Translations under genes and position numbers: made by a program
Shown here: positions 49,911-61,983 of the stretch, one piece after another
Numbering within the stretch: the first letter of the stretch is position 1
Layout: each line of letters starts with the position of its first letter
Notes under the pieces: generated by a model
Database searches by the model: none
Seen by the model: the letters and a program-made list of their open reading frames with translations, nothing else
Told to the model about the DNA's origin: nothing
NCBI RefSeq assembly: GCF_006715005.1
Contig: NZ_VFMJ01000001.1
Span: forward strand, 62,001-126,000
DNA length: 64,000 nucleotides
Source of the DNA: Serratia marcescens
GTDB lineage: Bacteria > Pseudomonadota > Gammaproteobacteria > Enterobacterales > Enterobacteriaceae
Direction: 5' to 3'

Positions 49911-50579
49911 TCAGCCCAGCAGGCCGGCGCCGACGTTGATAGACAGGCCCAGGATCAGCATGTTGAACGCGAAGGAGATCACCGACTGCAGCAGGGTGAC
50001 CTTCCGCACCTCCGCCGCCCCGACCGCCACATCGGCGGTCTGCGACGCCACCGCGATGGTGAAGGAGAAGTAGGCGAAATCCAGATAGGTCGGATCGGTG
50101 AGGTTGCCGGGGAACAGCAGCGGCAAAGGATCCTGCTGCGCGCCCTGGCGATAAAATTGGTGGGCATAGTGCATGGTGAAGGCGGTCGGCAGCAACAGCC
50201 AGGAGACCACCAGCGTGGCGCCGGTCAGCAGCAAATGCAGCGTCTTCAGAGAGCCGGCCACCTGTTTGGCGCTGCTCAGTTCAAACAGGATCGCCAACAA
50301 GCTGACCAGGCAACCGAGGCTGACCAGCGTCAGCACCATGCTGGCGCTTTCGTCCTGCCGCCGGGCGATCTGGCGAATGTGCTGCGGCGTGCTGATCAGC
50401 ATCAGCCGCCAGAGAAACAGCAGGTAGAGCCAGGCCAGCGTATTCCAGCCGATCATCAGGCGCTGCAGTAGCGAGAGCTGGGCGGGCAGCAGCAGAAAGC
50501 ACAGCAGCCCGGCGCCGACGGAAAACAGCAGCCTGGGCCGCACTTGCCAATAGTGTTTGAGCGAAGAGCGAATGTGCAT
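49911..50579 (-). CDS. DUF1345 family membrane protein
   Basis: 222 residues with about five membrane helices: LLFSVGAGLLCFLLLP, WNTLAWLYLLFLWRLML, MVLTLVSLGCLVSLLAILFE, a central HLLLTGATLVVSWLLL, and a C-terminal VISFAFNMLILGLSINV. The motif PTYLDFAYFSFTIAVASQTA is typical of DUF1345 proteins. Function unknown. It lies between fbaA and mscS, convergent with fbaA and divergent from mscS. Confidence 0.8.
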   Translation of the reverse strand: MHIRSSLKHYWQVRPRLLFSVGAGLLCFLLLPAQLSLLQRLMIGWNTLAWLYLLFLWRLMLISTPQHIRQIARRQDESASMVLTLVSLGCLVSLLAILFELSSAKQVAGSLKTLHLLLTGATLVVSWLLLPTAFTMHYAHQFYRQGAQQDPLPLLFPGNLTDPTYLDFAYFSFTIAVASQTADVAVGAAEVRKVTLLQSVISFAFNMLILGLSINVGAGLLG

Positions 50580-50784
50580 GATTAACGGATCCCTTGTCGT
50601 GAAATGGCCAACGCGCTGTTCTCAGCATAGAAGAAGCGGCGGGCGGTTTCGGCTATTTTTAACGCTGATGGTTGGCATGGGCCTTTAATGTTGGTTACCC
50701 TTAGGCGGTGGTTTCCTACTGGCTGCCGAGGCCAGTGTATTTTTGCGAGTTTCTCCCGTTAGGGACTGAGTTAGGACGACACGA

Positions 50785-51651
50785 ATGAAAGATTTGAATG
50801 TAGTAGACGGCATCAACGGTGCCGGCGACTGGTTGGTGAAGAACCAGGATCTGTTGATCCAGTACGCGGTGAATATCGTCGCCGCCATCGTTATCCTGAT
50901 CATCGGTTCGATCGTGGCCCGCGTGGTCGGCAATGCGTTGAACCGCGTGATGAAACTGCGCGGCATCGACGCCACGGTGGCAGACTTCCTGTCGGCGATC
51001 GTGCGTTATGGCGTGCTGGCGTTCACCTTCATCGCCGTGCTGGGGCGCGTCGGCGTGCAGACCACCTCGGTGATCGCCGTGCTGGGTGCCGCCGGTTTGG
51101 CCGTCGGCCTGGCGCTGCAAGGCTCACTGTCCAACTTCGCCGCCGGCGTGCTGCTGGTGATCTTCCGTCCACTGCGCGTGGGTGAATATGTCGATCTGGG
51201 TGGCGTGGCCGGTACCGTCGATCAGGTGCAGATTTTCTCCACCACCCTGCGTACTTCCGACAACAAGACCATCGTGGTGCCGAACGGTAAAATCATCGCC
51301 GGCAACATCATCAACTACTCCCGTGAACCGAACCGCCGCGTGGATATCGTGGTGGGCGTGGCCTACAACGCCGACATCGACGTGGTGAAGAAGGTGCTGG
51401 GCGATGTGATCGCCGCCGACAAGCGCATCATGCACGCCAAAGGCGTGACCGTGCGTCTGAACGAGATGGCGCCGTCATCCCTGAACTTCGTGACCCGCTC
51501 CTGGACCACCAACGCGGAATACTGGAACGTGTACTTCGATCTGATGGAAAACTTCAAGCGCGCGCTGGATGCCCACAACATCGGCATTCCGTTCCCGCAG
51601 ATGGACGTGCACCTGTATCGCACCGAAGACGCATCCGCCAAGGCGGAATAA
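50785..51651 (+). CDS. mscS: Small-conductance mechanosensitive channel
   Basis: A heptameric inner-membrane channel that opens under membrane tension to release solutes at hypo-osmotic shock. The pore helix TM3 reads [20 protein letters not shown] near residue 100, with the Gly/Ala packing pattern; the beta domain has [20 protein letters not shown] and [17 protein letters not shown]. The N-terminus [18 protein letters not shown] matches E. coli. It is 288 residues (E. coli 286). The C-terminus [10 protein letters not shown] is conserved. Tandem hairpins follow. Confidence 0.96.
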
Positions 51652-51656
51652 CAGAG

Positions 51657-51680
51657 AAGGGGGCCTTGGCCCCTTTTTTC
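51657..51680 (+). terminator. Terminator of mscS
   Basis: AAGGGGGCC and GGCCCCTT form a GC-rich stem (one bulged G) with a TT turn, followed by T residues. Confidence 0.75.
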
Positions 51681-51686
51681 ATTACA

Positions 51687-51726
51687 GGCCGAGACGCCAT
51701 CGATGGCGTCTCGGCCTTTTCTTTTC
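51687..51726 (+). terminator. 30-bp perfect palindrome plus T-run after mscS
   Basis: The arms GGCCGAGACGCC and GGCGTCTCGGCC flank ATCGAT, so the 30 bases 51687-51716 are self-complementary. TTTTCTTTT follows on the plus strand. It is probably a second terminator, between convergent mscS and the MFS gene. Confidence 0.65.
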
Positions 51727-51733
51727 CGCGAGG

Positions 51734-53083
51734 TTAGGCGCCAGCGGCCGGTTCCGCGAGCGGCGCGCGACGGCGCAGACTGAGGCGATAGAGCAGGAAG
51801 ATGGCGATCGCGCCCAGCAGCGCCGGCAGCGCCAGCCAGAGGAAGAACACTTCCGCCGATCCGGCGGCGGTCATCATCCAGGCGCCGAGCATCGAGCCGA
51901 CGATCGAGCCGAAGCGGCCGTTGGCCATGGCCCAGCTGACGCCGGTCACCCGGGCTGCGGTCGGGTAAAGGGTGGCGGAAACCAGGTTCAGGCCGTTCTG
52001 CGCACCGGCCACGCCGAAGCCAATCAGGAACACGACGGCGGCCAGCGTGTAGGCGTCGCCCATCAGATACCCGGTCGCGCCGATCACCAGCGCGGCGCCC
52101 AGGTAGGAGACGGCCAGCACGCGGTAGGGCCCGACCCGGTCCATCAGCAGCGCCATCAGGATGGCGCCCAGGGTGCCGCCGAGCGGCACCATCGCCCCGA
52201 TGCGCGAGGCGTGGGCGATATCGTAACCGGCGTCTTTGAGGATCGTCGGCAGCCAGCTGGTGAGCAGGTAGAACACGAACAGCGAGCAGAAGAACGCCGC
52301 CCACAGCAGCAGGGTGCGCACGGCGCGTCCTTCGATAAACAGGTGCGAGATCGGCGACGTGGCCTGTGCCGGGCGCTCGTCATCGACGATGGTGACCCCC
52401 GTCCAACGCTGGCCGGTGATACGCTCGACCACCCGGCGCAGCCGATCGGCATGTTTGGCGCTGGCGGCCATAAAGCGTACCGACTCGGGCATCTGCCAGG
52501 CCAACAGCGGCAGCAGTGCCAATGGCGCAATGCCGCCGACCAGCAGCACGCCGCGCCAGCCGAACGCCGGGATGATCTGCCCGGCCAGCAGGCCGCCCAG
52601 GGCCAATCCGGCGGTAAAGCCGCTCCAACTCAGGGTGACCATCAGCATGCGGCGGCGCGCCGGTGAGTACTCTGAGCTGAGGGTAATGCAAGTCGGTATC
52701 GCGCCCCCGAGGCCAATGCCGGTGATGAAGCGCAGCAGGGTCAGGGACTCGATTGAATGCGTATAGGCGGAAGCCAGGGTGCAGCCGCCAAACACCAGCA
52801 CCGCGACGAGCAGCACGCGTTTGCGGCCGAGGGCGTCGGCGATCGGCCCGAACAGCAGGCTGCCGATCAGCAAGCCGAATAGCCCCGCGCCGAAGGCAGG
52901 AGAGAGCTGAGCGGGCAACAGATCCCACTCTTCGCGCAGCGCCGGGGCGATATAGCCGATGATGGCGGTATCGAAGCCATCCAGCAGGGCAATCAGGAAA
53001 CACAGGGTGAGGATGAGGATTTGATAAGGCGAGATCCTGGCGCGATCGATAATTTCGCTGATGCGAGCGGTATCTGGGCTCAT
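51734..53083 (-). CDS. MFS transporter, aromatic acid:H+ symporter family
   Basis: 449 residues, 12 helices. The AAHS hallmark is LLDGFDTAIIGYIAPAL in helix 1, with Asp and Phe conserved in PcaK/BenK/MhpT proteins. ADALGRKRVLLVAV follows helix 2, and TSWLPTILKDAGYDIAHASR helix 7. Likely imports a hydroxylated aromatic acid, but no catabolic genes flank it directly (mscS to the left, mesD to the right on the same strand). It might serve the Rieske operon 15 kb away, which is speculation. Confidence 0.82.
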   Translation of the reverse strand: MSPDTARISEIIDRARISPYQILILTLCFLIALLDGFDTAIIGYIAPALREEWDLLPAQLSPAFGAGLFGLLIGSLLFGPIADALGRKRVLLVAVLVFGGCTLASAYTHSIESLTLLRFITGIGLGGAIPTCITLSSEYSPARRRMLMVTLSWSGFTAGLALGGLLAGQIIPAFGWRGVLLVGGIAPLALLPLLAWQMPESVRFMAASAKHADRLRRVVERITGQRWTGVTIVDDERPAQATSPISHLFIEGRAVRTLLLWAAFFCSLFVFYLLTSWLPTILKDAGYDIAHASRIGAMVPLGGTLGAILMALLMDRVGPYRVLAVSYLGAALVIGATGYLMGDAYTLAAVVFLIGFGVAGAQNGLNLVSATLYPTAARVTGVSWAMANGRFGSIVGSMLGAWMMTAAGSAEVFFLWLALPALLGAIAIFLLYRLSLRRRAPLAEPAAGA

Positions 53084-53213
53084 GAGGGTTCCACTGTTAT
53101 TAAGCTGGTGTGGGCTGGCTGAGGGGCTGTTCAGGCCGCTGTGGCTGGCATCGCGTAGAGATCCGAGTATACACCAGAGGGGGGGCGTTGCGGGGAGAGG
53201 GCGTCGATGATAC

Positions 53214-53246
53214 TCGCCCGCCGCAGGAGGGACCTGTGGCGGGCGA
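53214..53246 (-). other. Strong hairpin after mesD
   Basis: TCGCCCGCCGCAGG pairs with CCTGTGGCGGGCGA (one G-T) around AGGGA, 10 bases beyond the mesD stop. There is no T-run, so it is an mRNA 3' stabilising hairpin or a weak terminator. Confidence 0.5.
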
Positions 53247-53255
53247 TTGGCAAGG

Positions 53256-54287
53256 TTACTTGGCTAACAGTTCACGGCGCACGATCTCGGCACCCGCACT
53301 CAAGGCATTCAGCTTGCCGCTGGCGACCTGACGAGGCAGGGGAGCCATGCCGCAGTTGGTCGACGGATAGAGCTTGTCGGCATCGACAAACTGCAGCGCT
53401 TTGCGCAGCGTAGCGGCCACTTCCTCCGGCGTCTCAACGGTATGATTCGCTACATCAATGGCGCCGACCATCACTTTCTTACCGCGAATCAGTTCAAGCA
53501 GATCCATCGGCACGTGCGAGTTATGGCACTCCAGTGAGATAATATCGATAGTAGACGTTTGCAGCTTGGGGAACGCCTCTTCATATTGCCGCCACTCTGA
53601 GCCCAGCGTCTTTTTCCAGTCGGTGTTGGCCTTAATGCCGTATCCATAGCAGATATGTACGGCCGTTTCACACTTAAGCCCCTCAACGGCTCTTTCCAGG
53701 GCGGCGATGCCCCAGTCATTCACTTCGTCAAAGAACACGTTAAATGCGGGCTCATCAAACTGAATAATGTCGACGCCGGCGGCCTCGAGCTCTTTAGCTT
53801 CCTGATTGAGGATCTTGGCGAACTCCCAGGCCAATTTCTCGCGGCTTTTATAGTGGTTGTCATAAAGCGTGTCGATCATGGTCATCGGCCCCGGCAGGGC
53901 CCATTTAATCGGCTGCTTAGTCAGCTGGCGTAAAAATTTGGCGTCTTCAACGAAAACGGGTTTTTGGCGCGAGACCGCCCCCACAACGGTTGGCACGCTC
54001 GCCTCGTAGCGATTGCGGATTTTAACCACTTCGCGTTTCTCGAAATCGACGCCGCTGAGGTGCTCGATAAACGTCGTGACGAAGTGCTGGCGCGTTTGCT
54101 CGCCATCGCTGACGATATCGATGCCGGCCAGTTGTTGCTCTGCCAGCGACAAACGCAAGGCGTCCTGTTTCCCTTCGATTAATTCTTCATTCTGCAATTT
54201 CCAGGGCGACCATAGGGTTTCCGGCTGGGCCAGCCAGGAAGGTTTAGGCAAGCTGCCGGCGGTCGAGGTAGGGAGCAATATTTTCAT
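53256..54287 (-). CDS. mesD: Folate-independent methionine synthase MesD (MetE C-terminal-like)
   Basis: 343 residues corresponding to the catalytic (C-terminal) barrel of cobalamin-independent methionine synthase, without the N-terminal folate-related half. Zinc ligands are visible: H211 and C213 (VHICYGYG), E253 (LECHNSH) and C312 (PSTNCGMAPL). D179-E-P in IIQFDEPAF is the homocysteine-side motif. Short MetE-like proteins next to DUF1852 genes have been described as MesD, needing MesX and oxygen instead of methyl-folate; the neighbour at 54313 is DUF1852. Start ATG 54287 follows the partner by 25 bases. Confidence 0.82.
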   Translation of the reverse strand: MKILLPTSTAGSLPKPSWLAQPETLWSPWKLQNEELIEGKQDALRLSLAEQQLAGIDIVSDGEQTRQHFVTTFIEHLSGVDFEKREVVKIRNRYEASVPTVVGAVSRQKPVFVEDAKFLRQLTKQPIKWALPGPMTMIDTLYDNHYKSREKLAWEFAKILNQEAKELEAAGVDIIQFDEPAFNVFFDEVNDWGIAALERAVEGLKCETAVHICYGYGIKANTDWKKTLGSEWRQYEEAFPKLQTSTIDIISLECHNSHVPMDLLELIRGKKVMVGAIDVANHTVETPEEVAATLRKALQFVDADKLYPSTNCGMAPLPRQVASGKLNALSAGAEIVRRELLAK

Positions 54288-54312
54288 AATAGATGACCTG
54301 TATTTGAGTGAA

Positions 54313-55290
54313 TCAAAGCGCGTAGTGAGCAGACCATTGCTCAAGAATGGGCTTGTAGGGCTTGATAAATTGCTCTTCCGTAAATTTCCCCTGCTCAATC
54401 GCTAACTGGCTACGCTCTTCGCGATCGTAAACAATCTTGGTTAATGAATAATCCTGGTTATTCAGGCTTGGCTGATAGCATTGCCCCGCCGCCGCGTTGG
54501 CATTGTAAATTTCAGGCCGATAGATTTTCTGGAAGGTCTCCATCGTGCTGATGGTGCCGATCAGTTCCAGATCGGTGTAATCGCTCAGCAAATCCCCAGG
54601 GAAATAGAACGCCAGGGGCGCGACGCTATTTTTCGGCATGAAGTAGCGCACCTGCAGGCCCATTTTTTTAAAATACCGGTCGGTCAGCGAAGCGCCGTCT
54701 TGCCGATATTCGTCGCCCAACACCGGGTGTTGATTGCCTGTCCGATGATAGGTGTCTTTGCTGGACACGCTGAGGCAGATCACCGGCGGTTTGCTGAAAT
54801 TTTCATGGTATTCGTTTGAATTGACGAAGTGTTTAAAGATATTGCCGTGCAAATCGCCGAAATCATCTGGAATGGTAAATTCCGCCGTGTTTTTATTGTG
54901 CGCCGGCAGCAAGACGCTAAAGTCGTAATCGCGCACGTAAGAGGAGAAATTGTTCCCAACGATGCCTTCAATACGCTTTTGCGTTTTTTTATCAATGATG
55001 TTGGTTTTCAGGATTTCGATCACCGGGAAGCTGGCACCCTGATCTTCAACGCGCATCTCAACCGAAATGATTTCAAGCTCAACCGAATAGCGGTCGGCCT
55101 TGGGGTTATCCCAATGCGCCAACGAATTGAAGCGATTGTTAATCATCACCAGCGTGTTGCGCAGGTTCTCCCGGCGGTTTTCCCCTCTGGCCAAATTGGC
55201 GAAGTTGGTGGTGATACGCGTACTTTCAGAAGGGTTATAGTCTTCATTGAAAGAACTGCTCTTAATCGTAAAGGCAAAGTCTCTATTCAT
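54313..55290 (-). CDS. mesX: DUF1852 protein MesX, partner of MesD
   Basis: 325 residues, soluble. It begins MNRDFAFTIKSSSFNEDYNP and contains TNFANLARGENRRENLRNTL, FYFPGDLLSDY and IYRPEIYNANAAAGQCYQPS, which I recognise as DUF1852. Published fitness genetics link this family to MesD as an oxygen-dependent methyl supply for methionine synthesis; the actual methyl donor is not known to me. Base composition is clearly more AT-rich than the neighbours, which suggests acquisition. It is first gene of the mesX-mesD pair. Confidence 0.8.
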   Translation of the reverse strand: MNRDFAFTIKSSSFNEDYNPSESTRITTNFANLARGENRRENLRNTLVMINNRFNSLAHWDNPKADRYSVELEIISVEMRVEDQGASFPVIEILKTNIIDKKTQKRIEGIVGNNFSSYVRDYDFSVLLPAHNKNTAEFTIPDDFGDLHGNIFKHFVNSNEYHENFSKPPVICLSVSSKDTYHRTGNQHPVLGDEYRQDGASLTDRYFKKMGLQVRYFMPKNSVAPLAFYFPGDLLSDYTDLELIGTISTMETFQKIYRPEIYNANAAAGQCYQPSLNNQDYSLTKIVYDREERSQLAIEQGKFTEEQFIKPYKPILEQWSAHYAL

Positions 55291-55605
55291 CGTCTTATAG
55301 CATCCTGTTATATGATATGAAGGCTGGATTTATCCATTTATTTCAATTGGTTGTTTTTCTCTTTTTTTATTCAGCCGATTTCATATTGTCTGTCGTTAAT
55401 GAGGTCTATTTTTGCCAGAGTCCCGCAGGGAGTGAAAGAGACTTAATTTCATTACCACATGAGCGCTGTTCATGATCTGGCGTTCGTGTCGGTTTGCCGC
55501 CGTTGCCCTGCAGCGCAAACTGCCAACTACAGGGCCGGCAACCTGGTGCAGCCTGAAAAATTACGGGTATAATCCCCCCATGACTCCACGGCTTCAGACA
55601 CGAAC
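55291..55605. other. Divergent mesX-yaiL intergenic region
   Basis: 315 bases. The mesX-proximal half is very AT-rich (T-runs around 55360) and should hold its promoter; I found no convincing met box or riboswitch. The yaiL-proximal half is GC-richer without recognisable sites. No gene. Confidence 0.55.
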
Positions 55606-56145
55606 ATGACAAAACTCACCTTACAAGAGCAGATGCTCAAAGCGGGCTTGGTAACCAGCAAGAAAATGGCCAAAGTCCAAAGAACGGCTAAAAAATCACG
55701 CGTTCAGGCCCGCGAGGCCAGAGAGGCGGTGGAAGAGAATAAAAAGGCGCAGCTTGAGCGCGACAAGCAGCTGAACGAGCAGCAAAAGCAAGCCGCGCTG
55801 TCCAAAGAATACAAGGCGCAGGTGAAGCAACTGATCGAGATGAACCGCATCGTTCTGGCGAAAGGCGATATCGGTTTCAACTTCACCGACGGCAACCTGA
55901 TCAAGAAAATCCTGGTGGATAAGGCGACGCAGACCCAGCTGATCAATGGGCGCCTCGCCATTGCCCGCTTGGTGGTCGAGAACCGGGAAGAGTGTGAATA
56001 CGCGATTATCCCCGCGAGCGTCGCCGATAAAATCGCACAGCGCGATGCGGCCAGTATCGTGTTGCACAGCGCGCTGAGTCAGGAAGAGCAGGATGAAGAC
56101 GATCCGTACGCCGACTTTAAAGTGCCCGACGATTTGATGTGGTAA
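55606..56145 (+). CDS. yaiL: DUF2058 family protein YaiL
   Basis: 179 residues. The N-terminus MTKLTLQEQMLKAGLVTSKK is the family signature. It is followed by a highly charged coiled-coil stretch (residues 20-75, rich in Lys, Glu, Gln and Ala). A small domain FNFTDGNLIKKILVDKATQT comes after it, and the end is acidic (EEQDEDDPYADF). Annotated in E. coli as a nucleoprotein or polynucleotide-associated protein; the function is not established. The ATG follows GACACGAAC, a weak site. Confidence 0.85.
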   Translation: MTKLTLQEQMLKAGLVTSKKMAKVQRTAKKSRVQAREAREAVEENKKAQLERDKQLNEQQKQAALSKEYKAQVKQLIEMNRIVLAKGDIGFNFTDGNLIKKILVDKATQTQLINGRLAIARLVVENREECEYAIIPASVADKIAQRDAASIVLHSALSQEEQDEDDPYADFKVPDDLMW

Positions 56146-56152
56146 TACGCGT

Positions 56153-56851
56153 TCAGAACGGCGCGGCGTGACGAGCGGCGATCCGCTCTCCGCTGATGGG
56201 GTGCACAAAGTCCAGCTCGCTGGCGTGCAGCATCAGCCGCGGCGTCTGTTCGGTACCCGGCAGCAGGCGCCCGCCATACAGATCGCAGCCTAAAATAGGG
56301 TGGCCCAACTGCCGGCTGTGAATACGCAGCTGGTGGGTGCGCCCGGTCTCCGGGGTGAGCTGCACCCGCGTCAGCGGCAGCGAGATCCCGTCCTCCGCTT
56401 CACGATAAAAACGCTCGACGACCCGATAGCGGGAGCGGGCGGGCTTGCCGTGAAGGGCGCAAATCGACATCAGCGGGAACAGCGCCGGATCTTTGGCGAT
56501 CGCCGCGTCTATGACCCCTTCGTTATCCGCCAGATGGCCGCAAAGCAGCGCGCTGTACACTTTGCTGACGGTGCGCTCGCTGAACTGCCGGCAGAGCGCG
56601 GCGTTGGCGGCTTTGTTGCGGGCCACCACCATCAACCCGGACGTGCCGAAATCCAGGCGGTGCACCAGAGCGCAGCCGGGGAAGATCTGTACCAGCCGGT
56701 GGTGTACCGAATCGAGATTCTGCGGATTCTTGCCCGAGAGGCTGAGCAGCCCGGCCGGCTTATTGATCAGCGCCAGATGATCGTCCTGATAGAGGATCTC
56801 TATTTGGTCATGGCATGGCGGGGCGATAAAGGTATCGGTGATCGTAGACAT
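56153..56851 (-). CDS. RluA-family pseudouridine synthase
   Basis: 232 residues with the catalytic loop HRLDFGTSG (Asp attacks the uracil) near 75. Other motifs are ILYQDDHLALINKPAGLLSL at the N-terminus, PETGRTHQLRIHSRQLGHPI near 180 and RLMLHASELDFVHP. No S4 domain, as in RluA and TruC. RluA itself differs (HRLDMATSG), so this is a paralogue with unassigned RNA target. I start at ATG 56851 (MSTITDTF); the frame reaches 56926. It is convergent with yaiL, seven bases apart. Confidence 0.83.
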   Translation of the reverse strand: MSTITDTFIAPPCHDQIEILYQDDHLALINKPAGLLSLSGKNPQNLDSVHHRLVQIFPGCALVHRLDFGTSGLMVVARNKAANAALCRQFSERTVSKVYSALLCGHLADNEGVIDAAIAKDPALFPLMSICALHGKPARSRYRVVERFYREAEDGISLPLTRVQLTPETGRTHQLRIHSRQLGHPILGCDLYGGRLLPGTEQTPRLMLHASELDFVHPISGERIAARHAAPF

Positions 56852-56943
56852 CGGGCGGCCGGCTGGAGGGTGGGTGCGGATGATAGCGAATTTCGCGTCG
56901 ATGAGCGAATGCGGTTTTCGCTGCACTGCGCCTCATGCCCGTT

Positions 56944-56973
56944 GGCACCCGATGCGGCAAAGCATCGGGTGCC
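56944..56973. other. Perfect 12-bp hairpin between yiaS and the pseudouridine synthase gene
   Basis: GGCACCCGATGC and GCATCGGGTGCC with a GGCAAA loop, 20 bases past the end of the yia operon. There is no T-run on either strand, so it is a 3' mRNA-stability hairpin or Rho-associated end. Confidence 0.5.
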
Positions 56974-56993
56974 ACGGTTAAGTCCCCGGCGCT

Positions 56994-57689
56994 CTACTGC
57001 CCGTAGTAGGCGTTTTGGCCGTGTTTGCGCAGGTAGTGTTTGTCCAGCAGCTCGCGCTGCATGCTGTGAATGCCCGGCGTCAGCTGGCGCGAGAAAATGC
57101 CCATGTAGGCAATTTCTTCCAGCACCACCGCATTATGCACCGCGTTGTGGGCATCTTTGCCCCAGGCGAAGGGGCCGTGGGCATTGACCAGTACCGCCGG
57201 GATCGCGTTGGGATTGATATCGCGCTGGCGGAAGGTTTCGATAATCACGTTGCCGGTTTCCAGTTCGTAATCGTGCTCAATTTCATCCTGGGTCATCAGG
57301 CGAGTGCAGGGGATAGCGCCATAAAAATAGTCGGCGTGGGTGGTTCCCCAGGTGGGGATGTCCAGCCCGGCCTGCGCCCAGATGGTGGCGTGGCGCGAAT
57401 GGGTATGGACGATGCCGCCGATATCGGCAAATTCGCGGTACAGCGCCAGATGGGTGGCGGTGTCCGACGACGGTTTTTTTGCCCCCTCGACGGTGCGGCC
57501 GCTGGCCAGATCGACCACCACCATATCCTCCGCCGTCATATGCTCGTATTCAACGCCGGAAGGCTTGATCACCACCAGACCGCGTTCGCGATCCACCGCG
57601 CTGACGTTGCCCCAGGTAAAGGTCACCAGCTTATGGCGCGGCAGATCGAGATTGGCCTCCAGCACCTGTTGTTTTAACTGAGTCAGCAT
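56994..57689 (-). CDS. yiaS: L-ribulose-5-phosphate 4-epimerase
   Basis: A zinc-dependent class II aldolase-like epimerase that converts L-ribulose 5-phosphate to D-xylulose 5-phosphate, last step of the ascorbate/ketogulonate route (also called sgbE). Motifs: [20 protein letters not shown] near 30, [14 protein letters not shown], zinc ligands [14 protein letters not shown] near 95, and C-terminal HGQNAYYGQ. It is 231 residues, the family length. Start ATG 57689; it overlaps yiaR by seven bases. It is last gene of the operon. Confidence 0.94.
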
Positions 57690-58543
57690 GTCATGCCCCC
57701 TTGTTGCATTTTCTGTTCGATCCAGCGGCGGGCCTGAACGATCTCGGCCACCGGCTCCTCGGCTTTTTCTGTCCACATCTCAATCAGGAATGCGCCGCGG
57801 TAATTGAGGCGCTGCAGCGTGCGAAACACCTCGACAAAGTCGACGCAGCCTTCGCCAAACGGCACGTCACGGAATTGCCCCGGCGAAGCGGCGGTGACCG
57901 GGTAGGTGTCTTTCAGGTGAATGGCGGCGATGCGATCGATGCCCAGCTCCAGCTCGCGCGGCACGTCATTGCCCCAGGCGCTGAGGTTGCCGACGTCCGG
58001 ATACACCGTGAACCACGGTGAGGCCAGCAGGGTGTCCCAGGCTTTCCATTTACCGATCGAGTTCATAAAGGCGGTGTCCATAATTTCCACCGCCAGCATC
58101 ACCTGGGCGGCGGCGGCACGTTCTACCGCCCACTGCATGCCTTCGCTAAAGCGCGCCAGCGTCCCCTCGTCCTGCTCTTCGTAATACACGTCGTAGCCGG
58201 CCAGTTGGATGGTGCGGATACCGACGTCTTGGGCCAGCTGAATGGCCTGTTCCATCACGTCGAAGGCGCGCTGTCGCAGCGCCGGATCGTGGCTGCCAAA
58301 CGGAAAGCGCCGGTGGCCGGAGAGGCACATCGACGGGATGCGAATGCCGGTTTCCAGCATGGCGTCCACCAGCGCCAGGCGCTGCGCCTTGCTCCAGCTC
58401 AGGCGCGCCAGACGTTCATCGCTTTCGTCCACCGACATTTCGACGAAGTCGAAGCCGCAGGCCTTGGCCAGCGCCAGGCGTTCGGGCCAGCTCAGGTGTT
58501 TCGGCAGCGCTTTCTCGTAAATTCCCAACGGGTGCTGACGCAT
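57683..58543 (-). CDS. yiaR: L-ribulose-5-phosphate (L-xylulose-5-phosphate) 3-epimerase
   Basis: A TIM-barrel metal-dependent epimerase converting L-xylulose 5-phosphate to L-ribulose 5-phosphate (sgbU in E. coli). It begins [20 protein letters not shown], contains [20 protein letters not shown] and [20 protein letters not shown]. Metal ligands lie in [28 protein letters not shown] and EMWTEK. It is 286 residues, exactly as in E. coli SgbU. Start ATG 58543, the upstream frame being unsupported. Confidence 0.95.
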
Positions 58544-58544
58544 A

Positions 58545-59201
58545 TCATGATCTCCAGATGTCATCGATGGCGGTGCGGAACTGCCTGGCGGCCGCCGGCG
58601 AATCACCGGCCTCGGCCAGCGCGCGGCCGGCGATAAAGGCGGTGACGGCGATCTCTTTAAACAGCGGCAGGTCGGCGGGCGTGATGCCGCCGGTCACCGA
58701 CAGCTCGATGCCCAGATCGGACAGCGCCTTCATCCGATCCAGATCCTGCCGGCCCCAGGTTTGTCCGCTGGCCTGCGCGTCGCGGCCGCGGTGATAGATC
58801 GCCTGGCGAATGCCGAGGCCGCGCCATTGCCGCGCATCCTCCAATGTCCAGCGGCCGAACAGTTCGATCTGGATTTCACCGCCGTGACGCTCAGCGACCT
58901 CCCGCGCGCTGGCCATGGTGGCCAACGGCGCGGCGCAGATCACGGTCATCCAGTCCGCACCCTGACCGAAGGCCTGCTCGGCCAGCGTCGCACCGGCGTC
59001 GGCCACCTTGAGATCGGCCACCAGCGTGTGCTGCGGACAGCGCTCGCGCAGCGCGCTAACCGCCTGAATGCCGGCGCTGATGCACAAAATGGTACCGGCC
59101 TCGATGATGTCCACATGGGGGCTGAGGGTCTCGGCGGTGCGCAGCGCCGTATCCAAACGGGTTTGATCGAGCGCCAGCTGCAGGCGCGGTTTCGTGCTCA
59201 T
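58545..59201 (-). CDS. yiaQ: 3-keto-L-gulonate-6-phosphate decarboxylase
   Basis: A magnesium-dependent decarboxylase of the orotidine-phosphate decarboxylase suprafamily (sgbH), making L-xylulose 5-phosphate. Seen: [30 protein letters not shown] with the Glu and catalytic region, [16 protein letters not shown] (DxKxxD core motif) near 63, and [17 protein letters not shown] near 168. It is 218 residues. It overlaps the kinase stop by four bases and ends two bases before yiaR. Confidence 0.94.
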
Positions 59202-60688
59202 GGGGCCTCCTTGTTGGCGGGCTGCAGATGTTGCAATGCAGCAATCAGCGCCTGATAACGTTGGTGTTTGTTGTCGTAAGCTTCGGCGGCGGCCGCATCA
59301 GGCAGCAGCCGCTCGATACGCGGCGCCAGCCGGTGCTGGGCGGCGGTGAAATCGTTGAAGACGCCGCTGCCGACCATGGCCGCCATCGCCGCGCCCAGAC
59401 AGCCGGTTTCTTCCACCTGCGGTAGCTCAACCGGCAGACCGCTGACGTCGGCGAACATTTGCATCCAGGGGAGAGATTTGGCGGGGCCGCCGGTCACGCG
59501 CAGCGCCTGCGCCTCAGGGAAACGCCGGCGCATGCGGTTAAGGTGCGTCATGTGGCAGAACACCACGCCTTCGTAGATCGCCTGCACCAGGTGCTCGCGC
59601 TGGTGGAAAGCCTGCAGACCGTAGAAGCTGGCGCTCAGCCCCAGGCCGGCGTTGGAGCCATACAGGAAAGGGGCGAACAGCAGATCGCCGGCGGCTTTCG
59701 GCAGGGCGGCGACCCAGCGGTTAAGCTGGTCGTAGTCCTGCAGCCCCCATTGGCGACAGAACCACTCCAGGTTGGCGGCGGAAGTGGGGCTGGCTTCGTG
59801 CACGATGTATTGGCCGTTTTCGGCGTGGCGGCCATAGACAAAGGGATGATCGAAACCCTCGACGATGGCGTCGGTGATGCCGCTGGTGACCGACCAGGTT
59901 CCCATCACCGCATTGAGTCGGGTTTCGTCCTGCAGGCCGGCGCACAGTGCGGTGGACACCACGTCGAACAACCCGCCGACCACCGGGGTGCCGGTTTGCA
60001 GGCCGGTGATGGCCGCGGCATTTGCCTCGACGCGCCCGGCGATCTCGGCCGAACCGACAATCGTCGGCAGGGCGGGCATGATGTCGCCGATACCCAGCAG
60101 CTGCGCCAGCGCCGGGTCATAGCGTCCGCTGCGCATCTGATACAGGTTGGATTCGGAGATATTGGTTTCTTCGCAGGCCAGCTCGCCGGTCAGGCAATAG
60201 CGCAGGTAGTCGTGCGCCATCAGCACGCTGCCGATGCGGGCGTAACGTTCCGGCTGATGCCGCTTCAGCCAGCGCAGCAGCGAGACCGGGTGCCCGGTCC
60301 ACAGCGTTTGGCGCGTTTGCGGATACAGCGCCTGCGGCACGCCCTGTCGCTGCCATTCCTGCACCAGCGCCAGCGCACGCTGATCGGAAGAGAGCATGGC
60401 GTTGCCCAGCGGCTGCCCCTGCTTATCCAGCAGAAACGCCCCCTTACCCTGCGCCGAGATGCCGATGGCCTGGATGGCGCCGGCAGCGACGCCGCTGGCG
60501 GACAGCACTTCACGGATCACGTCGGCGGCGGTGCGCCACAGCGATGCCATATCGCGCTCGGCCCAGCCGGGCTGCGGCGCGACGATCGCCAGATTGCGCC
60601 GCGCAACGCCGTGTTCATGGCCGCTGCGGTCGTATAATCCCGCCTTGATGAAGGTACCGCCGCAGTCGAGTCCCAGCCAATATTCCAT
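59198..60688 (-). CDS. lyxK: L-xylulose/3-keto-L-gulonate kinase
   Basis: A FGGY-family sugar kinase; in E. coli LyxK phosphorylates L-xylulose and 3-keto-L-gulonate. MEYWLGLDCGGTFIKAGLYD (phosphate-1 motif) opens it; QPGWAERDM, GISAQGKGAFLLDKQGQPLG, and GLFDVVSTALCAGLQDETRL follow; VTGGPAKSLPWMQMFADVSG is the adenosine motif. It is 496 residues (E. coli 498). Two ATGs, 60691 and 60688; the second has the better six-base spacing from GAGGAG. It overlaps the stop of the transporter gene. Confidence 0.94.
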   Translation of the reverse strand: MEYWLGLDCGGTFIKAGLYDRSGHEHGVARRNLAIVAPQPGWAERDMASLWRTAADVIREVLSASGVAAGAIQAIGISAQGKGAFLLDKQGQPLGNAMLSSDQRALALVQEWQRQGVPQALYPQTRQTLWTGHPVSLLRWLKRHQPERYARIGSVLMAHDYLRYCLTGELACEETNISESNLYQMRSGRYDPALAQLLGIGDIMPALPTIVGSAEIAGRVEANAAAITGLQTGTPVVGGLFDVVSTALCAGLQDETRLNAVMGTWSVTSGITDAIVEGFDHPFVYGRHAENGQYIVHEASPTSAANLEWFCRQWGLQDYDQLNRWVAALPKAAGDLLFAPFLYGSNAGLGLSASFYGLQAFHQREHLVQAIYEGVVFCHMTHLNRMRRRFPEAQALRVTGGPAKSLPWMQMFADVSGLPVELPQVEETGCLGAAMAAMVGSGVFNDFTAAQHRLAPRIERLLPDAAAAEAYDNKHQRYQALIAALQHLQPANKEAP

Positions 60689-61983
60689 CATTCGCTCCTC
60701 GCGCTGTGGTCGCATTTATTGGGCAGCATCAACGCCAGCACGGAGGCGATCGCCAACGAGGCCGCCAGACTGTAGACGCCGACATCCTTGTTGAACAGGC
60801 TGATCAGGACGCCGACCATATACGGGCCGCAAAAGCCGCCGAGGTTGCCCAGCGCATTGATCACGCCACGTGCGCCGCCGGCCACTTCGGCGTTGAACAA
60901 TTTGGGTGGGATGGTCCAGAACACCCCGGCCGCCGCCTGAATGAATACGCCGCAGCCGACCAGCGCAGCGTAAGACCACCAGATGTGATCCTTCAGCAGC
61001 ACCGACAGCGCCATGCAGGCGGCAAAGCAGGCCAGCGGCAGGGCGACGAAGACTTTGCGTTTGCCGGTGCGATCGGAGAGGGTGGAGATGATCATCATGC
61101 CGAAGATGGCGCCGATATAGGGCAAGATAGCCAGCAGGCCCACTTGCTCCATATCGCCGTGGGTCAGCCCTTTCAAAATGGTCGGCAGCCACAGGGTGTA
61201 ACCGTAGATACCGGTCTGGTAGAAGAAATTCACCAGGATCAGCTGCCACATGATCCGATCGCCCAGCACCCGGCGCAGCGAGGCGTTGCGCACCGTTTTT
61301 CCTTTGATCAGCAGCTGTTCGTCGTGCAGGGTCTTCACCAGATACTCTTTCTCCGCCTGCGAGATCCATTTGGCCTCCTGCGGCCGGTTGCTGATGGTGA
61401 AATACCACAGCGCCATGACTACCAGCGACAGAGCGCCCTCCACCAGGAACAGCATGCGCCAGTCCCAGGCGGTGATGATCCAACCCGACAGCGGGGCGGT
61501 GAGAATGCCGGCGATCGGTACGAACATGATGACGATGGCGTTGGCGCGGCCGCGCTCCTTATCCGGGAACCAGTTGCTGATCATGGTCAGCACCACCGGC
61601 AGCATGCCGCCTTCGGAAACGCCGAGGGCGAAGCGCAGGAACAGCAGCTGGTACTGGTTGGTGACCAGCCCGGTCAACACCGAGATCACCGCCCAGGCCA
61701 ACAGTGACCAGCCGATGAATTTCTTGCCGTTGCCGTATACCGCCAGCTTGCCGCCGGGCACCTGCAGAAACAGGTAACCGATAAAGAAGATGCCGCCGGC
61801 CAGCCCGGCCATTGAAGCGGTGATGCCGAGTTCGTCATCCATGCCGCCGGGCATGGCGAAGGCGATGTTGACCCGATCCATGTAAGAAATGATGCAGGTG
61901 ATGAGGATCGGCGGCACGATCCTCAGCCAGCGGAGCTTGGGGATAGCCTGGCTTTGGCTGACGGAAACGGAGGCTGTATTCAT
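60688..61983 (-). CDS. MFS transporter for sugar acid (yiaX-type)
   Basis: 431 residues, anion:cation symporter group: SYMDRVNIAFAMPGGMDDEL after helix 1, RFALGVSEGGMLPVVLTMIS in helix 4, and NALGNLGGFCGPYMVGVLIS in helix 11. In Klebsiella the ascorbate operon has MFS genes (yiaX1, yiaX2) at this place instead of the TRAP transporter yiaMNO of E. coli; the gene here fits that arrangement. Likely substrate is L-ascorbate or 2,3-diketo-L-gulonate. It overlaps lyxK and follows yiaL by about 125 bases. Confidence 0.87.
   Translation of the reverse strand: MNTASVSVSQSQAIPKLRWLRIVPPILITCIISYMDRVNIAFAMPGGMDDELGITASMAGLAGGIFFIGYLFLQVPGGKLAVYGNGKKFIGWSLLAWAVISVLTGLVTNQYQLLFLRFALGVSEGGMLPVVLTMISNWFPDKERGRANAIVIMFVPIAGILTAPLSGWIITAWDWRMLFLVEGALSLVVMALWYFTISNRPQEAKWISQAEKEYLVKTLHDEQLLIKGKTVRNASLRRVLGDRIMWQLILVNFFYQTGIYGYTLWLPTILKGLTHGDMEQVGLLAILPYIGAIFGMMIISTLSDRTGKRKVFVALPLACFAACMALSVLLKDHIWWSYAALVGCGVFIQAAAGVFWTIPPKLFNAEVAGGARGVINALGNLGGFCGPYMVGVLISLFNKDVGVYSLAASLAIASVLALMLPNKCDHSARSE

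Follow-up and report, generated by a model that had tools for sequence, protein, structure and literature searches.

The window, by which is meant the whole 64,000-nucleotide stretch of Serratia marcescens DNA analysed here, contains an intact and standard mesX-mesD operon that, with a probability of about 0.93, provides a third, aerobic-only route to methionine beside MetE and MetH and is probably activated by MetR (Table 1). The MesD/MesX family was founded on Acinetobacter baylyi and Sphingomonas koreensis by Price et al. (2021, PMC7857596), who report that MesD together with MesX rescues E. coli mutants in metE and in metF when air is present, and not without oxygen. By analogy with these published relatives, the pair in the window would likewise need oxygen and be independent of both folate and B12.

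Table 1. The two genes of the operon and the candidate regulatory sites upstream (window coordinates)
Feature	Coordinates	Strand	Motif and sequence	Remarks
mesX (PF08908, formerly DUF1852)	54313..55290	-		ATG start, 325 aa
mesD, core methionine synthase	53256..54287	-		ATG start, 343 aa, 25 bp behind mesX
MetR-type box 1	55460..55472	-	TGAA-N5-CTCA, TGAACAGCGCTCA	starts 182 bp before the mesX start codon
MetR-type box 2	55439..55451	-	TGAA-N5-RTC, TGAAATTAAGTCT	21 bp from box 1

Identity of the two genes

The original prediction that a DUF1852 gene followed by a short MetE-like gene is a MesX-MesD pair is borne out by PF08908, NF006589 and the A. baylyi identities, which agree with one another. 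MesX covers the whole of the PF08908 profile, ‘Putative oxygenase MesX’ (1-323 of 323; 616.4 bits, cut-off 25), and MesD scores 705 bits with NF006589 (cut-off 392; the query began at 54284, without its Met). Identity to the copies of A. baylyi DSM 14961, a reference other than the ADP1 record used by Price et al., is 87% for MesD (622 BLASTP bits) and 76% for MesX (519 bits). Price et al. (PMC7857596) assign MesD on at least 390 BLASTP bits or at least 560 phmmer bits to the A. baylyi protein, and with its 622 bits to the DSM 14961 copy the window protein lies above the first of these values. MesD also matches PDB 3RPD with 682 bits over residues 2-341 of the query, and on comparison by sequence there is no notable difference between the two. 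This structure, which contains zinc and selenomethionine, is of a protein from Shewanella that Price et al. (PMC7857596) named MesD. The mechanical list of open reading frames puts the mesD start at a TTG, 54398, which is inside mesX; the ATG at 54287 is preferred here because the first residues then equal those of the A. baylyi protein.

The zinc ligands previously named for MesD, H211, C213, E253 and C312 (Met = 1), are all four at the positions claimed. Its homocysteine residues are S12, E63 and D178, which in our mapping correspond to Ser22, Glu73 and Asp188 of 3RPD (an offset of 10). All seven residues are invariant, bar one gap at C312, across the 162 distinct rows of a MesD alignment (182 rows before duplicate removal, with the MetE row L004 and the host's own MetE set aside). 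A mesD match is present at 152 of 152 mesX loci (those up to L170, L001 and L003 being the window's own). The pair is like that of A. baylyi and S. koreensis in gene order, in domain make-up and in the zinc and homocysteine ligands, but differs in having no adjoining flavin reductase gene and in that its host also has MetE and MetH. That the window genes are a regular member of the described MesX-MesD family, of a kind already known, is well supported by these sequence comparisons.

Distribution, base composition and the question of gain

The host genome has one MesX match, a full MetE, a MetH (1898 bits) and MetR. The pair had been thought unusual in enterics, which its distribution contradicts: within the genus 26 of 30 genomes have mesX (the four lacking it measure 1.5 to 3.6 Mb), and of 295 genomes sampled from the order 77 match it, 76 passing the cut-off, with 31 of 100 genera represented. 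The allied claim, that MetE and MetH are what enterobacteria usually depend on, holds to the extent that this host has both, but not when set against how common the pair is among enterics. According to Price et al. (PMC7857596), MetH or MetE accompanies the pair in the majority of its hosts. In a sample of the phylum mesX is in 44 of 398 genomes, many shared with the order sample, and in the class of one far carrier it is in three of 289. At the sensitivity of blastn the pair was not seen in any of 5,426 E. coli genomes, though a copy (L067) is present in a record that bears the title Escherichia sp. ESNIH1. Among plasmid records 209 of 72,556 have mesX, and among phage records two of 50,697.

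Several individual records have features of their own. Two titled Acinetobacter phage MD-2021a (H7 and H8, CAKLQH020000007.1 and CAKLQF020000011.1) have a full MesX match at 74% identity, and are either phage or bacterial DNA. The copy on a contig titled Bacillus subtilis (L080) is almost equal to that of Pseudochrobactrum, which is probably due to contamination or a wrong title. At L158, in genome G400, mesX has a diverged MesD (58% over the part compared) some 700 bp away, and elsewhere there is a second MesX-like stretch, in two pieces with a stop inside one of them.

The description of the pair as markedly AT-rich stands for mesX, the GC content of which is 0.485 as against 0.580 in its 1.5-kb flanks, but for mesD (0.550-0.552) the effect is mild. 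The eight other measured genes of the window have values from 0.541 to 0.670, and the next gene, DUF2058, is at 0.541 as low as mesD. Third-position GC is 0.626 for mesX, 0.676 for mesD and at least 0.717 for the eight other genes, and the share of F, Y, M, I, N and K is 0.34 in MesX versus 0.17-0.27 in the other nine gene products.

This AT-richness had been the ground for supposing that the pair was probably gained, a supposition that does not survive comparison with other hosts. Over 151 loci the gene is below its flanks in GC at 132 for mesX and at 82 for mesD; when the 145 loci with distinct mesX DNA are counted, these numbers become 126 and 78, and the gene differs from its flanks by -0.060 and +0.001 on average. 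From a fit on flank GC the values expected at this locus are 0.485 (mesX) and 0.547 (mesD), where 0.485 and 0.552 are seen, and when the marcescens-type rows are left out the fit predicts 0.486 for mesX, though with related rows this is a trend and not a test. Because low GC is a trait of the family, the AT-richness of mesX is no sign of gain.

That this lineage gained the pair recently, which the low GC would suggest, is in our judgement unlikely. The low GC of mesX from which the idea derives is general to the gene and is reproduced by the fit; mesX is present in most of the genus, where the genomes without it are the four of 1.5-3.6 Mb; and at the 12 of the 26 genus loci that adjoin DUF2058 and RluA, mesX is 94-98% identical to that of the window. 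What speaks for gain is the low GC of mesX beside its flanks, its low third-position GC, the patchy occurrence among the genera of the order, the presence of mesX on plasmid records, and the position of the genus copies in two starred sets of the tree with differing neighbours. The pair has likely moved about in the order, on grounds other than GC, though transfer is not proved.

The neighbourhood varies within the genus: apart from the 12 loci just mentioned, two (L010 and L023) have RluA without DUF2058, and 12 further loci have neither within 1.5 kb. The DUF2058-RluA address is also used by some Enterobacter, Pantoea and Chimaeribacter copies, and those of other genera at this address (L082, L092, L101, L086, L093, L095 and L164) are apart in the tree. 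Across genera the site would be either an old location that they share or one at which the pair has landed repeatedly. A quick tree was built from 96 loci; in it the genus rows form the two starred sets, and the full set of groups requires 39 changes where the least possible is 20, a count raised by the mixing of NCBI family names with code groups and obtained from a short tree search with long rows. Elsewhere in the window, 56994..60715 has a gene for L-ribulose-5-phosphate epimerase (by profile match) and, by their look, an isomerase, a decarboxylase and a sugar kinase; it is probably an operon for pentose or ascorbate use.

Control of expression

MetR control of the PF08908-metE2 pair is not new, as Leyn et al. 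(2014, PMC4239095) have the pair among well-conserved MetR targets. The window operon shares with their description a MetR-type palindrome upstream. It differs in that two boxes are described and counted here, and in that box 1 has a C in one half-site, so that it departs at a single position from the 8 fixed bases of the ATGAA-N5-TTCAT-type site. With at most one mismatch, TGAA-N5-TTCA is present in 102 of 106 mesX upstreams (350 bp), and it is exact in 32; in shuffled controls the mean was 18.1 (most 29) for one-off sites and 0.9 (most 5) for exact ones. One-off sites of the same form are also beside the host metE/metR and before metH. Sites with one mismatch are frequent by chance (there are 5 in 7,001 bases of L201), so that a single box says little and it is the conservation of two boxes which carries the weight. 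Both are present in 99 of 104 distinct mesX upstreams, with the second box 20-22 bp on (the upstreams without the box pair are L078, L094, L102, L105 and L110), as against 0 to 2 in slid controls and a mean of 0.29 (most 2) in shuffles, figures to be read with the rows being related and the box rules having been set after the sequences were viewed. Within the genus both boxes are at 26 of 26 mesX loci. The MetR gene of the host, which is beside metE, scores 646 bits with NF011950 (cut-off 382), and from the sequence of the predicted boxes we infer that MetR binds before mesX in this genome.

In two strains of A. baumannii, mesX is reported to be down by about 8 log2 units with B12 (PMC12892962). 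Leyn et al. (2014, PMC4239095) report Moraxellaceae to be without MetR. MetR-type boxes are seen before mesX at the Moraxellaceae loci L070, L079, L083, L087, L100, L105, L107 and L109, seven of the eight having both boxes and the eighth box 1 only.

Other forms of control were considered. A scan of the host genome for MetJ boxes, AGACGTCTAGACGTCT with at most 3 mismatches, gave no site in the mesX upstream, and MetJ was rejected as a control of mesX. A search of 50000..60000 with Rfam gave no hit at E values up to 1 that would indicate a riboswitch. A consensus scan of 53000..55700 for sigma-70 promoters gave none on the minus strand, and for this reason no promoter is assigned to mesX. A sigma-54-like spacing noticed by eye in some mesX upstreams was dropped, as the marcescens-type copies do not have it.

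MesX and the proposed reaction

In the mechanism proposed, MesD would bind homocysteine as a zinc thiolate, through H211, C213, E253 and C312, and then methylate it. Since MesD has no folate domain, its methyl donor would be supplied via MesX, the predicted oxygen-dependent partner, which would make or carry that donor in a reaction requiring oxygen. Expression of the operon is probably switched on by the homocysteine-responsive activator MetR acting through the two upstream boxes, and in this host the pair would add an aerobic-only route to those of MetE and MetH. The chemistry that this gives to MesX is one which we infer. Price et al. (PMC7857596) suspect a redox reaction for MesX, a flavin reductase often being encoded nearby, and oxygenase/flavin chemistry is their prediction. 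The support for flavin chemistry from a nearby reductase is weak here: a relative of the A. baylyi-type flavin reductase is at 11 of 80 mesX loci (all 8 of Moraxellaceae and 3 others), and there is none within the window. The nearest reductase in the host genome is HpaC-type, far from mesX and adjoining a gene that resembles that of its monooxygenase. If MesX needs reduced flavin, enterics must source the flavin elsewhere.

The AF2 model of MesX has a pLDDT of 90.8 and a pTM of 0.90, and the whole model was used in the fold searches. With Foldseek there was no PDB chain at E ≤ 0.001, the best, at 0.018, being Argonaute with a TM of 0.15. A second fold comparison gave 28 chains with Z of at least 2, the top value being 3.4, and 15 of the 27 rows listed were acetyltransferases, including GNAT, p300/CBP, Rtt109 and Mec-17; this likeness was set aside as being within what common arrangement gives. 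PDB sequence searches up to E = 1 gave nothing either for MesX alone or for a 116-row profile. The residues invariant in 114 MesX rows include H148, C172 and H188, but two remote paralogues in the same alignment are without these three, and no MesX metal site is proposed for that reason. The remote paralogue has 279 aa, is 27-28% identical to MesX and occurs in two of the 30 genomes of the genus (L030:1360-2196, minus strand; L031:1033-1869, plus strand); that of L030 scores 33 bits on PF08908 and matches no further Pfam family at E values of up to 1.

The pair looks redundant beside MetE and MetH. It might then be asked if MesX serves another oxygen-dependent reaction in this host, with the pair making no methionine. 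The high identity to the proven A. baylyi pair, the conservation of the MesD ligands and the methionine-regulon boxes upstream make this very improbable, and an aerobic route to methionine is the preferred reading.

MesD and MetE

MesD has in common with MetE the catalytic domain and its zinc site, and differs from it in two respects. The first is the absence of the N-terminal folate-binding domain. MesD aligns solely with the catalytic, C-terminal part of the host's own MetE (31% identity), scores 134 bits with PF01717 and 20 bits with PF08267 (below the cut-off of 27), and fails the MetE model TIGR01371 (107.8 bits versus 929.95 required). Though such a restricted alignment is what a truncated or decayed MetE beside an unrelated mesX would give, that reading is ruled out by the scores against the family models and by the constancy of the pairing: MesD is full-length on NF006589 and 3RPD, its ligands are intact, a mesD match accompanies mesX at every locus examined and the genome has a full MetE at another place.

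The second difference is a glycine. In E. coli, oxidative stress shuts off MetE through glutathionylation of Cys645, which sits where the active site opens (PMC521173). At the equivalent position the host's own MetE keeps a cysteine (C648, two residues past a zinc ligand), and MesD has Gly215, with glycine in 162 of 162 distinct rows. Terms for Cys645 or glutathionylation are absent from the main text of Price et al. (PMC7857596), and a text search combining MesD with MetE-oxidation terms found no paper joining the two. Insensitivity of MesD to nitrous oxide has also been reported (PMC13059711). Conceivably, the pair is in enterics an oxidation-proof stand-in for MetE, with a switch by oxygen and redox state between two B12-independent synthases that are both under MetR, but we regard this as doubtful. 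The glycine may be an incidental trait of the family, since it is present in all hosts examined and since plant MetE is not known to have the Cys645-type cysteine either.

Significance

The finding confirms a published family in another host. The pair is a convenient setting for the question that the family poses, namely which substrate MesX oxidizes and where the methyl group originates, and in hosts that have MetE, MetH and MesD together one can test when the oxygen-dependent route comes into play.
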